Source: Halobellus clavatus (GTDB lineage Archaea > Halobacteriota > Halobacteria > Halobacteriales > Haloferacaceae). From it: a stretch of DNA of 64,000 nucleotides. The notes under the pieces are model-generated. The model had not been told where the DNA came from. It saw only the letters and a program-made list of their open reading frames with translations, and ran no database searches. Shown here one piece after another: positions 560-62,425 of the stretch. The stretch covers positions 62,001-126,000 of the forward strand of contig NZ_FNPB01000010.1 in NCBI RefSeq assembly GCF_900107195.1, written 5' to 3'. The translations under genes were made by a program, and so were the position numbers. The first letter of the stretch is position 1; each line of letters begins with the position of its first letter.

Positions 560-1342
560 ATGCACGCAGGACGCGGCTCCGACGACGCAGCCGTTGGTGC
601 CACTGTGGGCGTTGCGACGGCCCTCGAGGACCTGAAGTCGCGCGGAAGCGCGCTGCTGGTCGTCGGGTCGGTGCCGGAGACGGAGTACGCACGCGTTTCG
701 GGGTGTATGCTCGGTGACGCCTCCGAAGATCGGCGGCGATTGATCGTCGAACGGGGACGAAGTCCGGACGTTCGCTTCGCTGACATCGATCGCTGGACGC
801 CCGAGTGGACGCGGATCCTTCACTGCGATGTCGACGCCAGAGGGTCGACGGACGTAGACGCCTCGGGAGCAGCGACTCCCGAATTCGGAACCGACGGCCC
901 CGAATCAGGACCGACTGGCCCGTCGTCCGAGGGAATGCCGACGAATGGTCCCAAGCGATCGCTCGACGTCAGGACGTCGGTGTCGGGGTCGGTCACCGAA
1001 CTGGGTATCGAAGTCAGCACCGCAATCGATCAGTTGAACACGATCGCGGGAGGACTCGACCCGGCGGAACTACGAATCGCGTTCGACTGCACCACGTCGC
1101 TCCTCTCGAGGTACGACGAACAGACCGTCTTTCGCTTCCTCCACCTCCTCGCCAACGACGTGCGACGCGTCGAGGCGATGGGCCACGTCAGGCTCCAGAA
1201 GCCGTACGACGCGGAGATCGTCAGGCTGCTAGAACCGCTCTTCGACGCGGTCGTCGAACTGCGTCTCGAGGGGACGGTGACGCAGCAGCGATGGCACTTC
1301 CGCGACGCGGGGGTGACCTCGGAGTGGCTGTCGATCGACTGA
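560..1342 (+). CDS. RecA-like/HTR-like haloarchaeal protein of unknown function, paired with a CHAT protease
   Basis: A 260-residue acidic soluble protein. Its N-terminal third has the layout of a degenerate RecA/KaiC-like nucleotide-binding fold: a strand (ALLVVGSVPET) where a Walker A loop would sit, without the canonical GxxxxGK[ST]. A low-complexity, Gly/Ser/Pro/Asp-rich linker follows (about residues 95-135). The C-terminal part, including LRIAFDCTTSLLSRYDEQTVFRFLHLL, resembles the Walker B and following helix of such proteins. I recall similar haloarchaeal proteins labelled HTR-like or DUF7504. It lies 57 bases upstream of the CHAT protease gene on the same strand, and each gene has its own TATA box. 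A sensor or partner role for the protease is inference. Confidence 0.75.
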   Translation: MHAGRGSDDAAVGATVGVATALEDLKSRGSALLVVGSVPETEYARVSGCMLGDASEDRRRLIVERGRSPDVRFADIDRWTPEWTRILHCDVDARGSTDVDASGAATPEFGTDGPESGPTGPSSEGMPTNGPKRSLDVRTSVSGSVTELGIEVSTAIDQLNTIAGGLDPAELRIAFDCTTSLLSRYDEQTVFRFLHLLANDVRRVEAMGHVRLQKPYDAEIVRLLEPLFDAVVELRLEGTVTQQRWHFRDAGVTSEWLSID

Positions 1343-1370
1343 CTGCGGCGAGCACACCGACCAGTACGTT

Positions 1371-1378
1371 TTTTATTA
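1371..1378 (+). promoter_or_regulatory. TATA box for the CHAT protease gene
   Basis: ttttatta sits 22-29 bases before the ATG at 1400, right after the stop of the upstream gene. The protease can therefore be transcribed on its own as a leaderless message. Confidence 0.6.
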
Positions 1379-1399
1379 TGTGCGTGAATCCGTAACACG

Positions 1400-3613
1400 A
1401 TGGAACGCTTCGATCGCCGTGAGCACTCGGCTTCCGACCCGATCCCGGCGACCGGGGACGATCACCTCCAGATCGAGTTCGAGACGCTCCCGGATCGAAG
1501 CGGAGTCGTCGTCTCCGACCCGATCGAACGGAGCCAGTTCGCGCTTTCGACGCCCGGACCGGGCCGCATTCGACAGGCCGATCCGACGGCGTTCCAGTTC
1601 CCCGCCGACGCCGCGGTGAGCCTGCGGACCGACCAACTCGACCTCGAAACTGCTGTCTCCGTCTGTGTTCGCGACGGCGACGGCCAGATGCTGGCCCAGA
1701 CCGAACACTTCGCAGACCAGACGTTCCCCGAGGGTCGATACAGCATCGAACTCTTCGCGCCGATCAAACTCTACCTCCGGGTCGACTCCTCGCTTCGGGT
1801 CGTCTCGGACGCGATGCAAACCAGACTCGAGTTCGGTGACGACACCGACGTGCTCGTGGGCGCGCGTTCGCACCACAAACGCCCCGCAGCGACGATCCAG
1901 ACCACCGATCGACCGCGGGACGCGATGCGTGCGGTCTCGCTCCTCGGGTCAGCCCTGAAGACGACCAGCGTCGAGCGCTCGTACCCGTCGCTGCGTGGCC
2001 ACCCGCCGTCGATCGAGCGCGGGGCGACGTTCGACGCGCCCGACGGACTCGAACCGCCGGAGACGGGCGTCTCGATCGTTCTGCCGGAGACCCGACGGCA
2101 CACGTACGTGGCCGCACCGCTCGCGTACTACCTCGGGGCCGAGGTCGTCCCCGGTGAGGCGGCACGGATCGTCACCGACGACGGCTTCGAATACGATCTC
2201 GATGGTCCGACCGGGTTCGAAGAGACAGTGTCTCGCGTGCTGAAGCAGACGTTCTTCCTCGATTGTCTTACCAGGACGGAGGGCTACTACGAGGTCGACC
2301 TCCACGAGCGAGCGGCGCTGGAATCGGATCTGGGACTGGACTTCGGCGACCTCTACGGCCGCTCGCTCGGCGCACAACTCGATGCGTACCTCGACGTGCC
2401 GTACGAGCTGGTCGAACCGCACGTTCCCGAGTGGAAGCTCACCACCCACGTCGCTCCGACCGGGTCGAATATCGAACTGTTGCCGTTCGTCGCTAACGAT
2501 CTCGCCGTTGTCCGGACGCCGGAGCGCAACCCCAGCGATGGATCGGCCGTGCAGACGGACGCGGTGAACGAGTTCCTCCGCGGGGCATCGACACCGGTAC
2601 CGGCGGGCCCGACACCGTCCGGCGACGACTTCACCCGGAGCGTCGGCACCCGGAGCCGAAGCCGGAGCCAGAGTGTCGGCTCGGGCGAGCGCACCGACGC
2701 ACAGCAGACATACGTCAGGCCACCAGACTCCGACTCGCTCGAACAGTCGTGGGTCGGCGACGGGATCCCGATCGGCGCGAGCAAGGCCTCGCTTCAGGCG
2801 TACCGGAATCGGCTCGACAGAGAACCGATCGAGGGCGACATCGGCATCACCGTGGTCTGTAACGACCCGCGGATGGCCGAGGAGCGAGACGCCGTCGAGT
2901 CGGTGTACGGTTCCCGGGAGGAACTGCCGTTCGACGTGCGGACGCACTACGAACTCTCCGTCGGGGAACTCAGAGACGTCCTCACGGAGGAGACCGAGTT
3001 CCTGCACTACATCGGCCACATCGACGACGACGGGTTTCAGTGCCCCGACGGCGCACTCGATGTGACCTCAGTGGACTCGATCGGCGTCGACTCGTTCCTC
3101 CTCAACGCGTGCCAGTCGTACGAACAGGGAATGGAGTTGATCGAGCGCGGGGCGATCGCCGGGATCGTCACGCTCAACGACGTGATCAACAGCGGGGCGG
3201 TCGACATTGGACGGGATCTAGCACGCTTGTTGAACTATGGTTTCCCGATCCGAGTATCGTTGGACTTGGCCAAACAGGATAATGTAATCGGTCAAAACTA
3301 TATTCTCGTCGGCGATGGCGGATTTTCCGTCACACAGGTACAGGCATTGCTCCCTAATATGTGCAAGATTGAACGGCAGAATGAAATATATGCCGTAGAG
3401 TACCGGACATATCCATCTGGCGAGTACGAGTTAGGGAGTCTCGTGGTCCCCTATATCCCCGGAAACGAAACGTACTATCTCTCTTCAGGGACTGCTACAG
3501 TGTTTGATTTGTCACGGTCCGAACTCGAGGATTTCCTCTCGTTAGAGAACATACCGGTGATGGTCGACAGTTCGTTACAGTGGAGCGACGAACTCTGTAT
3601 CGACTCGATTTAA
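1400..3613 (+). CDS. CHAT-domain (caspase-like) protease, large haloarchaeal form
   Basis: A 737-residue protein. The C-terminal region has the signature of the CHAT clade of caspase-like cysteine peptidases. His540 lies in EFLHYIGHID after a hydrophobic strand. Cys571 lies in FLLNACQSYEQG, followed by RGAIAGIVTL, the usual strand-helix after the nucleophile. The 31-residue spacing fits the family. Residues 1-400 form an acidic N-terminal region I cannot assign, and residues 400-460 are a low-complexity Ser/Arg/Gly linker. There is no signal peptide or membrane segment, so it should be cytoplasmic. Neighbours are the RecA-like gene upstream and a 47-residue peptide gene that ends one base beyond its stop on the opposite strand. 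From about base 3205 the composition drops visibly below that of the rest of the gene. The substrate is unknown. Confidence 0.85.
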   Translation: MERFDRREHSASDPIPATGDDHLQIEFETLPDRSGVVVSDPIERSQFALSTPGPGRIRQADPTAFQFPADAAVSLRTDQLDLETAVSVCVRDGDGQMLAQTEHFADQTFPEGRYSIELFAPIKLYLRVDSSLRVVSDAMQTRLEFGDDTDVLVGARSHHKRPAATIQTTDRPRDAMRAVSLLGSALKTTSVERSYPSLRGHPPSIERGATFDAPDGLEPPETGVSIVLPETRRHTYVAAPLAYYLGAEVVPGEAARIVTDDGFEYDLDGPTGFEETVSRVLKQTFFLDCLTRTEGYYEVDLHERAALESDLGLDFGDLYGRSLGAQLDAYLDVPYELVEPHVPEWKLTTHVAPTGSNIELLPFVANDLAVVRTPERNPSDGSAVQTDAVNEFLRGASTPVPAGPTPSGDDFTRSVGTRSRSRSQSVGSGERTDAQQTYVRPPDSDSLEQSWVGDGIPIGASKASLQAYRNRLDREPIEGDIGITVVCNDPRMAEERDAVESVYGSREELPFDVRTHYELSVGELRDVLTEETEFLHYIGHIDDDGFQCPDGALDVTSVDSIGVDSFLLNACQSYEQGMELIERGAIAGIVTLNDVINSGAVDIGRDLARLLNYGFPIRVSLDLAKQDNVIGQNYILVGDGGFSVTQVQALLPNMCKIERQNEIYAVEYRTYPSGEYELGSLVVPYIPGNETYYLSSGTATVFDLSRSELEDFLSLENIPVMVDSSLQWSDELCIDSI

Positions 3614-3614
3614 T

Positions 3615-3758
3615 CTAAGGCCCAGAGATCGCGCCGTGATTTCCGGCAGCGACCGTCCCCGCCTGCGAGAGCAGGAGGAGCGCGGTGAACAGGACGCCCA
3701 TCGCACGGGGGTGATTGGACAGGTACTCCGCCACAGCGTTGGTGTCATCTTCGGACAT
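3615..3758 (-). CDS. 47-residue single-pass membrane or secreted peptide of the CHAT unit
   Basis: I start this gene at the ATG at 3756-3758, in frame below an upstream ATG at 3803, because a TATA-like tcttattaaa lies 23-32 bases before it. The product has a short acidic head (MSEDDTNAVAEYLSNHPRAM), one hydrophobic stretch (GVLFTALLLLSQAGTVAA) and the tail GNHGAISGP. The hydrophobic part ends in an Ala-x-Ala-like pattern, so it could be a membrane anchor or a signal peptide releasing a 9-residue peptide. I recall haloarchaeal peptides of this form (DUF7503) beside RecA-like/CHAT genes. It converges on the protease gene with a single base between the stop codons. Confidence 0.7.
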   Translation of the reverse strand: MSEDDTNAVAEYLSNHPRAMGVLFTALLLLSQAGTVAAGNHGAISGP

Positions 3759-3780: not shown

Positions 3781-3790
3781 TTTAATAAGA
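3781..3790 (-). promoter_or_regulatory. TATA box for the small peptide gene
   Basis: On the minus strand tcttattaaa lies 23-32 bases upstream of the ATG at 3758, in an AT-rich pocket. Its position supports the shorter start and a leaderless message. Confidence 0.5.
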
Positions 3791-3801
3791 ATTTTTCTGA
3801 C

Positions 3802-3943: not shown

Positions 3944-4543
3944 TTACTTCGAGGAGATATCTTCGCTGTCGGCGGCCTGATCGATGTCGCGGTACATTCC
4001 GGCGAACTCGTCGCCTCCGCCGAACTGACCGAGCGTCTCGTCGAGTTCACCTCGAAGCTCTGCGACGCGTTCAGAGAGTTCTTGGTACTCCTCGTTGTTC
4101 TCGAGCGAGACGGAGTCCTTCTCCGATTCGAGGAGGGCTTTTTTCGAGGCCAGTGAGAACAGCTCTTGGATTCCTTCGTCGTAGGTATCCCGCAGGAGGA
4201 GGTTCTCGGCGGTCTCTTTGAGCGCGTCGCGAGAGACGGGTTTGACGAGGTAGTCGTCGAACCCCATCTCGACGATGTCGTAGTCGGGTTCGACGGCGGT
4301 GACCATCGCGACGCGGCAGTCGACGCCGCGCTCGCGAATCGCCTCGAGCGCCTCGTCACCGGAGAGATCCGGCATCCGCCGGTCGAGGAGGGCTACGTCG
4401 ACTTCGTCGTCGAGTTTCTCGAGTGCCTCACGACCGCCGTAGGCGACTCTGACGCGATAGTCGTCTCGCAGCCACGTTGCATACAGGTCAGCGAGATCCG
4501 GTTCGTCTTCGACGACGAGGACCAGTGGCGGGTCAGCACTCAT
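3944..4543 (-). CDS. Response regulator with HalX-type C-terminal domain
   Basis: A 199-residue two-component receiver protein. The receiver domain (about residues 1-125) has the acidic pair in VVEDEPD, the phospho-accepting Asp in DVALLDRRMPD, the T/S switch in VAMVTAVEPD and the Lys in DDYLVKPVS. The C-terminal part (about residues 130-175) is the helical HalX-like domain of haloarchaeal regulators, with a predicted coiled coil in the Glu/Leu-rich stretch. There is no recognisable DNA-binding domain and no adjacent sensor kinase, so its partner is unknown. The ATG at 4543 starts the receiver fold directly. An 8-bp-arm palindrome sits 12 bases upstream of that start. Confidence 0.92.
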   Translation of the reverse strand: MSADPPLVLVVEDEPDLADLYATWLRDDYRVRVAYGGREALEKLDDEVDVALLDRRMPDLSGDEALEAIRERGVDCRVAMVTAVEPDYDIVEMGFDDYLVKPVSRDALKETAENLLLRDTYDEGIQELFSLASKKALLESEKDSVSLENNEEYQELSERVAELRGELDETLGQFGGGDEFAGMYRDIDQAADSEDISSK

Positions 4544-61510: not shown

Positions 61511-62425
61511 TCACGACACCGTCGTCTCGGTCGGGTGCTCGACGCGGCGTCGCCAGGCACCCTCGACAGCGTGGTCGTGGTCGGGATGGAGACAGTCCGC
61601 CAGCACTTCGAGAGACGCAACGAGGCGGGGGCCCGGACGATTGAAGAGCGCATTGCCGTCGGCGGCGTAGACGTGGCCGCTGCGGACCGCGCTGAGATCC
61701 GCCCACCCCGGCCGTGCGGCCAACTCGGCGACGGCCTCGGCCGCCCGGTCCGGCCCGAACCCGCAGGGTGCGACCACCAGCCGCTCGGGGTCGTACGCGC
61801 GGAGGTCCGACCAGCGGACCGGCTCCGACGGACCGTCGGGCTGGAACGACGCGTCGCCGCCGGCGATCCCGACGAGATCGCGGACCCAGTGACCGGCCCT
61901 GATCGGCGGGTCCGTCCAGTCGAGCACCGCGGTCCGTGGGCGATCGGCATCTTCGGCACGTGATCGAACCCGTTCGATGCGGTCTCGGGCCGCCTCGAGC
62001 AGTTGCTCGGCGTTCTCGACTCGGTCGACGGCGTCGCCGACGCGACGGACGTCGGCGAGCACCTCCTCGAAGGAGTGTGGATCCAGGGTGAGCACCGTCG
62101 CGTCGAGGTCCCGAGCGGCGACCGTCTCGAAGACTGCCGAGGACTCGACCGCGCAGACGTCGCAGGTGGCCTGTGTGACGATGATGTCGGGGTCGAGGGC
62201 TTCGAGCCGATCCGCGTCGATGTCGTACACCGCGCCGTCGACGGACTGCATCTGCTCGTCGATCTCGCGGCTCGATCGCCCCTCGTGGTCGATGATGGTA
62301 CTCGTGACGCGGGGGCGATCGGTGACATCGGGCGGGTGATCGCAGCTGTGTGAGATCCCGACGGGGTCGACGCCGACGGCCGACAGGATCTCGGTCGCGG
62401 AGGGGAGCAGGGAGACGGCGCGCAT
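61511..62425 (-). CDS. BtuF-like cobalamin/metal-binding protein without a signal peptide
   Basis: 304 residues from ATG 62425, 21-32 bases after TATA-like gaatttattctc. Periplasmic-binding (class III) features: MRAVSLLPSATEILSAVGVD, GISHSCDHPPDVTDRPRVTS, ALDPDIIVTQATCDVCAV, VLTLDPHSFEEVLADVRRVG, and WSDLRAYDPERLVVAPCGFG. The protein begins directly with the fold, so it is probably cytoplasmic, unlike BtuF proper. It has extra cysteines in ATCDVC. Role in corrinoid salvage, sensing or metal handling is inferred from homology only. Confidence 0.82.
   Translation of the reverse strand: MRAVSLLPSATEILSAVGVDPVGISHSCDHPPDVTDRPRVTSTIIDHEGRSSREIDEQMQSVDGAVYDIDADRLEALDPDIIVTQATCDVCAVESSAVFETVAARDLDATVLTLDPHSFEEVLADVRRVGDAVDRVENAEQLLEAARDRIERVRSRAEDADRPRTAVLDWTDPPIRAGHWVRDLVGIAGGDASFQPDGPSEPVRWSDLRAYDPERLVVAPCGFGPDRAAEAVAELAARPGWADLSAVRSGHVYAADGNALFNRPGPRLVASLEVLADCLHPDHDHAVEGAWRRRVEHPTETTVS

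Follow-up and report, generated by a model that had tools for sequence, protein, structure and literature searches.

A convergent CHAT protease and micropeptide gene pair, core to Halobacteria, as a candidate precursor-peptide switch

A caspase-fold protease gene and a micropeptide gene face each other in the stretch of Halobellus clavatus DNA that we analysed, the 64,000 nucleotides from position 62,001 to 126,000 of contig NZ_FNPB01000010.1 (hereafter the window, with positions counted from its first letter). The protease is a 737-residue CHAT protein (1400-3613, + strand), the micropeptide a 47-residue precursor of the DUF7503 family (3615-3758, - strand; PF24335, E 1.5e-21), and 1 base separates the two stop codons. 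The reading that we favour, tentatively and with a little less than even confidence, is that the locus is a precursor-peptide/cognate-protease pair, core to Halobacteria, in which the exported peptide switches its own cytosolic CHAT protease. The pairing, the coding status of the peptide gene, its cut-site pattern, the selection on its C-terminal peptide, the private peptides of individual protease paralogues, and the fold and dyad of the protease are all directly supported by the data presented here.

Results

The association of the two genes is evident from a set of 46 loci in many genera, which were drawn by their DUF7503 gene and whose neighbours were then inspected. A CHAT gene is adjacent to and convergent with the peptide gene at all 46 of these peptide-first loci; the gap between the two has a median of 3 bp and ranges from -38 to 152. 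In eight multi-copy genomes, all 30 DUF7503 loci that were read face a CHAT gene, and 29 of these are new beyond the 46-locus set. The earlier note on this DNA described a trio, said to occur in other haloarchaea as well, that also included the upstream gene, here assigned to DUF7504; the protease/peptide pair recurs throughout, but DUF7504 lies 5' of CHAT on the CHAT strand at only 17 of the 46 loci, so that the trio is better described as a pair plus an optional accessory. One of the 30 multi-copy loci (L031; G367 C1 near base 1820) is a duplicated pair in which the CHAT copy is frameshifted and the peptide gene is intact.

CHAT matches are present in at least 366 of 391 Halobacteria genomes, a lower bound since two candidates were scored per genome, and DUF7503 is present in 335 of the 391. 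None of the 25 genomes without CHAT has DUF7503, versus 335 of the 366 with CHAT (Fisher p 3e-24, a value that ignores kinship among the genomes). This near-universal occurrence identifies a core module rather than an accessory defence island; a PADLOC search gave no match for the CHAT family and phage records gave none either, which makes a role as a defence or abortive-infection effector unlikely. Some CHAT copies lie on plasmids, where they are annotated 'hypothetical protein', and two annotated plasmid records (L229, L230) list no gene immediately 3' of CHAT in a gene table that is incomplete. Outside Halobacteria, the sole homologues found are distant ones from a single family of non-halophiles within the phylum (L169-L172), and no convincing facing precursor ending in Gly-Pro (GP) was found for these. 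The literature searched gives no description of DUF7503, DUF7504 or the haloarchaeal CHAT proteins.

The window peptide reads MSEDDTNAVAEYLSNHPRAMGVLFTALLLLSQAGTVAA-GNHGAISGP, in which the C-terminal variable peptide GNHGAISGP (3618-3644, - strand) follows a signal-peptidase-like VAA site and has the GP end as its invariant part. Across 77 distinct peptide sequences the leader keeps a conserved plan of [HN]P[RK], then a hydrophobic core, then SQAG, and the -3/-1 rule of signal peptidase I is obeyed in every one (A or G at -1; V, A, S, T or G at -3). The tail that follows is 8-9 residues long in 73 of the 77 and ends in Gly-Pro in 75; its entropy is 2.5-3.3 bits, versus 0.1-0.3 at key leader positions. 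Canonical precursors ending in GGTIR, GGGIR or GGAVF (L201, L213, L200, L211) form a separate C-terminal class. Within two genera the ratio of nonsynonymous to synonymous polymorphism (pN/pS) is 0.14-0.15 for the leader, 0.23-0.56 for the tail and zero for the GP codons, low values which indicate that the gene is translated and under constraint. A promoter-like A/T block also stands at constant spacing 5' of the peptide gene at 58 loci; in the window, the alignment of these 58 upstream regions places this A/T-rich (TATA-like) block at 3782-3796 (- strand), 24-38 bases 5' of the ATG. Opposite divergent CHAT paralogues lie divergent precursors that the Pfam model misses and that retain the same plan. 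In 18 of these, the hydrophobic segment is preceded by 66 K/R and 19 D/E residues and followed by 7 K/R and 79 D/E, a charge bias that predicts a cytoplasmic N-terminus and a C-terminus outside the cell.

The part of the micropeptide on which selection acts is most clearly seen where the leader is missing. One genus supplies six such genomes (L085-L089, L166), in which the open reading frame facing CHAT has no hydrophobic segment and consists instead of 4-13 tandem copies of GN(G/S)(G/S)GISGP, linked by [YMFS][TN]AD, so that an Asp-Gly junction, [TN]AD-G, precedes each repeated core. The 46 array units of these six genomes show zero amino-acid differences inside any array, although up to 8 of the 9 codons differ synonymously; identical protein units combined with synonymous variation point to selection on the 9-mer itself, and thus to the C-terminal peptide as the functional part. 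The layout resembles that of pheromone precursors with multiple cores. Two further leaderless versions, each conserved between species of one genus, face CHAT at other loci: one ends in '...LDGSSSPYTGP' about 50 bp beyond CHAT (L159/L161), and the other in '...RAKRVSTYGGP' (L148/L175). Because all of these versions retain a C-terminal peptide, the hydrophobic segment is dispensable and the C-terminal peptide not.

Where CHAT is present in several copies, the peptides differ too. In genomes with 4-15 CHAT copies the tail differs from copy to copy, and in two genomes of one genus (G124, G345; L129-L139, L149-L157), which have 14-15 CHAT matches, most of the copies read face a small open reading frame of their own with its own tail; two paralogues of this genus lack the catalytic residues. 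From these sequences, every protease that has a facing peptide seems to have a private one.

The protease itself escapes ordinary annotation. Pfam and NCBIfam searches of the window protein at E 0.1 gave no match, nor did a sequence search against solved structures, and PF12770 (CHAT) is matched by 17 of 62 homologues, with a best value of 2.1e-5. Its AlphaFold2 (AF2) model (predicted local distance difference test score, pLDDT, 89; predicted template modelling score 0.89) places it among caspase-fold, clan CD-like proteins. The top structural match is to the gingipains (Z 19-21 over ~240 residues, RgpB Z 21.2), with an identity to gingipains R and K (family C25) of 10-13%, followed by SAVED-CHAT 8tl0 (Z 19.0, 2.2 Å, 169 residues), separase (Z 14-18) and the Craspase TPR-CHAT protein Csx29 (Z 12-14). 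On the strength of this model the product of 1400-3613 is a CHAT (caspase-fold) protease, with proteolysis itself predicted.

The model divides the protein into a beta-rich N-terminal domain (residues 26-160, 1475-1879; pLDDT mostly >90), to which no fold match was assigned, an alpha/beta region with an invariant R199-GHPP-203 in the alignment (residues 165-475, 1892-2824), and the catalytic caspase-fold domain that matches 8tl0 (residues 476-646, 2825-3337). Residues from ~345 superpose on the segments that precede the active domain in separase and gingipains, and this region may form a second (pseudo)caspase-like subdomain; the model shows disorder at residues 404-430. The AF2 secondary structure contains no helical-repeat array, and no signal sequence is evident. 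The predicted catalytic residues are His540, encoded at 3017-3019, and Cys571, encoded at 3110-3112, and both stay unchanged throughout a 66-sequence alignment; the dyad is retained in 59 of 59 DUF7503-paired CHATs and in 19 of 19 glyA-linked CHATs, and is absent from 2 of 19 CHAT paralogues of one genus. The glyA-linked subclade sits at a conserved housekeeping site with the order glyA, CHAT, a TbsP regulator (PF19138/PF23336) and YcaO (PF02624) (L140, L142-L145; for example L140:6636-11537).

DUF7504, the third member of the supposed trio, is a 260-residue protein encoded at 560-1342 (+ strand; PF24336, E 1.2e-51). Its model has a KaiC-like fold (best Z 17.7, 183 residues), and throughout its family alignment the Walker A P-loop is absent, the position reading LVVGSVPETEYA without GKT/S, so that DUF7504 is degenerate and probably not an ATPase. 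It is present in all 391 Halobacteria genomes, with up to 9 matches each, and its presence in every genome together with its place at 17 of 46 loci marks it as an accessory of the module and not a core part. Where it occurs, it might serve as a non-ATPase scaffold or adaptor. The description from which this work started therefore holds for the individual genes: three open reading frames at 560-1342 (+), 1400-3613 (+) and 3615-3758 (-), a degenerate RecA-like protein without P-loop, a CHAT protease with a caspase fold and the His540/Cys571 pair correctly placed, and opposite its 3' end a 47-residue peptide with a single hydrophobic segment, now recognized as DUF7503.

Upstream of the peptide gene and on the same strand is a HalX response regulator (3944-4540, - strand; PF08663 and PF00072), whose start we place at an internal MSADPP. 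At 14 of the 46 peptide-first loci there is a response regulator no more than 15 kb away, a possible association. An aminotransferase and IMP dehydrogenase complete, with DUF7504 and the HalX regulator, the neighbours of CHAT in the window.

Discussion

In the mechanism that we propose, the micropeptide would be a propeptide with a Sec-type leader, composed of an n-region ([HN]P[RK]), a hydrophobic core and an A-x-A site, and the functional product would be the 8-9-residue C-terminal peptide ending in Gly-Pro. The precursor would most likely be exported and cut by signal peptidase; the free peptide would then act as a ligand, after uptake or, where the precursor has no leader, directly, and would turn its own cytosolic CHAT on or off by analogy with the RRNPP peptides and their receptors. 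The switched protease would in turn cleave targets. Export, processing, perception or binding by the cognate CHAT, the direction of control and the output are the steps that we infer.

Several observations weigh against this mechanism. The leaderless precursors (L085-L089, L166, L159/L161, L148/L175) mean either that Sec export is not general or that the peptide is intracellular in those lineages. A facing peptide is missing altogether from the glyA-linked CHAT subclade and from some tandem CHAT copies, and the leader is conserved beyond the needs of an ordinary signal peptide. The GP end is also not universal, since other canonical tail ends such as GGTIR occur and many tails in the CHAT-expanded genus carry GP 3-8 residues ahead of the C-terminus.

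The main rival, possible though in our judgement doubtful, dispenses with any signal between cells: the micropeptide would be a cell-internal or membrane-tethered private inhibitor, activator or pseudosubstrate of CHAT, following the logic of securin and separase. One-to-one private pairing fits such a regulator well, as do leaderless, presumably cytosolic precursors with multiplied units, a CHAT protein without evident signal sequence, and a catalytic domain like that of separase, which securin inhibits. However, the charge bias and the signal-peptidase-like site found in 77 of 77 sequences place the usual tail outside, and a tethered inhibitor needs neither. A secreted antagonistic peptide of the microhalocin kind, with CHAT as its maturation or immunity factor, would explain why the leader resembles a signal peptide, why the tail is variable and why genomes hold several differing copies; it is nonetheless improbable given a near-universal distribution, a short tail without charge that is not hydrophobic, and a peptide that is unchanged across the leaderless arrays, and a cytosolic protease would be an unusual immunity protein. 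The earlier note had itself suggested that the peptide is cut or set free by the protease, with membrane disruption, dormancy or signalling as the result; read as a gasdermin-like model, this would serve dormancy, death or antiviral defence. CHAT proteases are indeed effectors in Craspase and SAVED-CHAT and most versions of the peptide carry a hydrophobic segment, but we now find this model quite improbable: several lineages lack that segment yet keep the C-terminal 9-mer, which in six genomes is the only part kept and is multiplied under selection, and the distribution is that of a core gene without PADLOC or phage-record match. Cleavage of the peptide by the protease may still occur, but in the hydrophobic versions the charge bias predicts a tail that lies outside, away from a CHAT protein without evident signal sequence.

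Two further explanations were considered. The leader followed by a C-terminal GP recalls ribosome-arrest or secretion-monitor peptides such as SecM and TnaC, in which case the terminal Gly-Pro-stop would slow termination; with as many as 13 GP repeats inside a precursor, stalling would occur again and again, the next gene on the peptide strand is not conserved and CHAT lies on the opposite strand, so that we give this idea very little weight. We think equally little of the suggestion that convergence is itself the function, with overlapping 3' transcripts exerting antisense control of CHAT and the peptide incidental. Every case is convergent and the median gap is 3 bp, as it would predict, but gaps of up to 152 bp occur in this set of loci, the peptide is under purifying selection as a protein, and the tandem arrays are conserved at the amino-acid level.

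A bolder form of the precursor-peptide switch, which strikes us as rather unlikely, would make the micropeptide an archaeal ribosomal peptide pheromone, private, GP-ending and in some genomes tandem-encoded, with the caspase-fold protease as both receptor and effector and with the family as the source of haloarchaeal caspase-like activity.

Extracts of Haloferax volcanii have very high Asp-specific caspase-like activity for which the authors report that gene homologues are lacking (PMC3615174). H. volcanii has DUF7503 (it served as a control in the DUF7503 search), 10 of 10 other Haloferax species sampled have the CHAT-peptide pair, with a predicted Haloferax 9-mer of the GN[TS]xxIYGP type, and CHAT is a natural candidate for the gene behind this activity; the [TN]AD-G junctions of the tandem-repeat genus could likewise be cut by a caspase-type enzyme. 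Caspase-like activity has also been reported in archaea beyond the range of the CHAT family (PMC3615174), which weighs against the link, and the proteasome may be an alternative source in H. volcanii. We also asked whether the peptide could be the disk-forming quorum signal of Haloferax and set this aside: that signal can be extracted with ethyl acetate and resists proteinase K (PMC12240190), and is probably something else. If the favoured reading is right, almost every haloarchaeon, H. volcanii included, has a precursor-peptide/protease circuit that the literature searched does not describe, Archaea gain a candidate ribosomal peptide-signalling system, and the 'archaeal caspase' activity gains a candidate gene.

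Among known systems, SAVED-CHAT and the Craspase TPR-CHAT protein share the CHAT catalytic domain, and to this extent the parallel with Craspase drawn in the earlier note stands. No SAVED or TPR domain was found in the window CHAT and no CRISPR or cyclase partner was seen nearby; unlike those systems, this one has a core and not a defence-like distribution. The combination that defines type III-E Craspase, a TPR domain with adjacent gRAMP/Cas7-11 and Csx30, is not seen at this locus, where the N-terminal part of CHAT is beta-rich and then alpha/beta and the neighbours are those named above, and the parallel with bacterial gasdermins fails because the partner has only 47 residues and a hydrophobic segment that is dispensable in several lineages. 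Gingipains, unlike the protein described here, are secreted and self-processed and have no precursor-peptide partner. Separase, with securin, resembles this pair in that a further domain precedes the caspase-fold catalytic domain and in having a dedicated protein regulator, but here the regulator would be the precursor of a short peptide rather than a large disordered protein, and there is no link to cohesin.

The closest resemblance in organization is to the RRNPP systems (Rap-Phr, PlcR-PapR, arbitrium), which likewise have an adjacent small propeptide gene and many private pairs, whose Sec-type leader and short C-terminal product are predicted here too, and for which tandem-pheromone propeptides are documented (PMC11343458). 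Of the RRNPP signatures (PMC10075063), a propeptide of 10-100 residues beside the partner gene is found at 46 of 46 loci; a Sec signal peptide ahead of a C-terminal mature peptide has the -3/-1 pattern in 77 of 77 sequences and the charge bias in its favour, and the leaderless versions against it. The pair is nevertheless not an RRNPP member, because its partner is a 737-residue caspase-fold protease and not a TPR receptor of 250-500 residues; it also differs in being archaeal, in having convergent genes and in being a near-universal core gene. What is new is the architecture and the family membership, and the function that we offer for them is a proposal: a peptide switch laid out like those of RRNPP, built around a caspase-fold protease.

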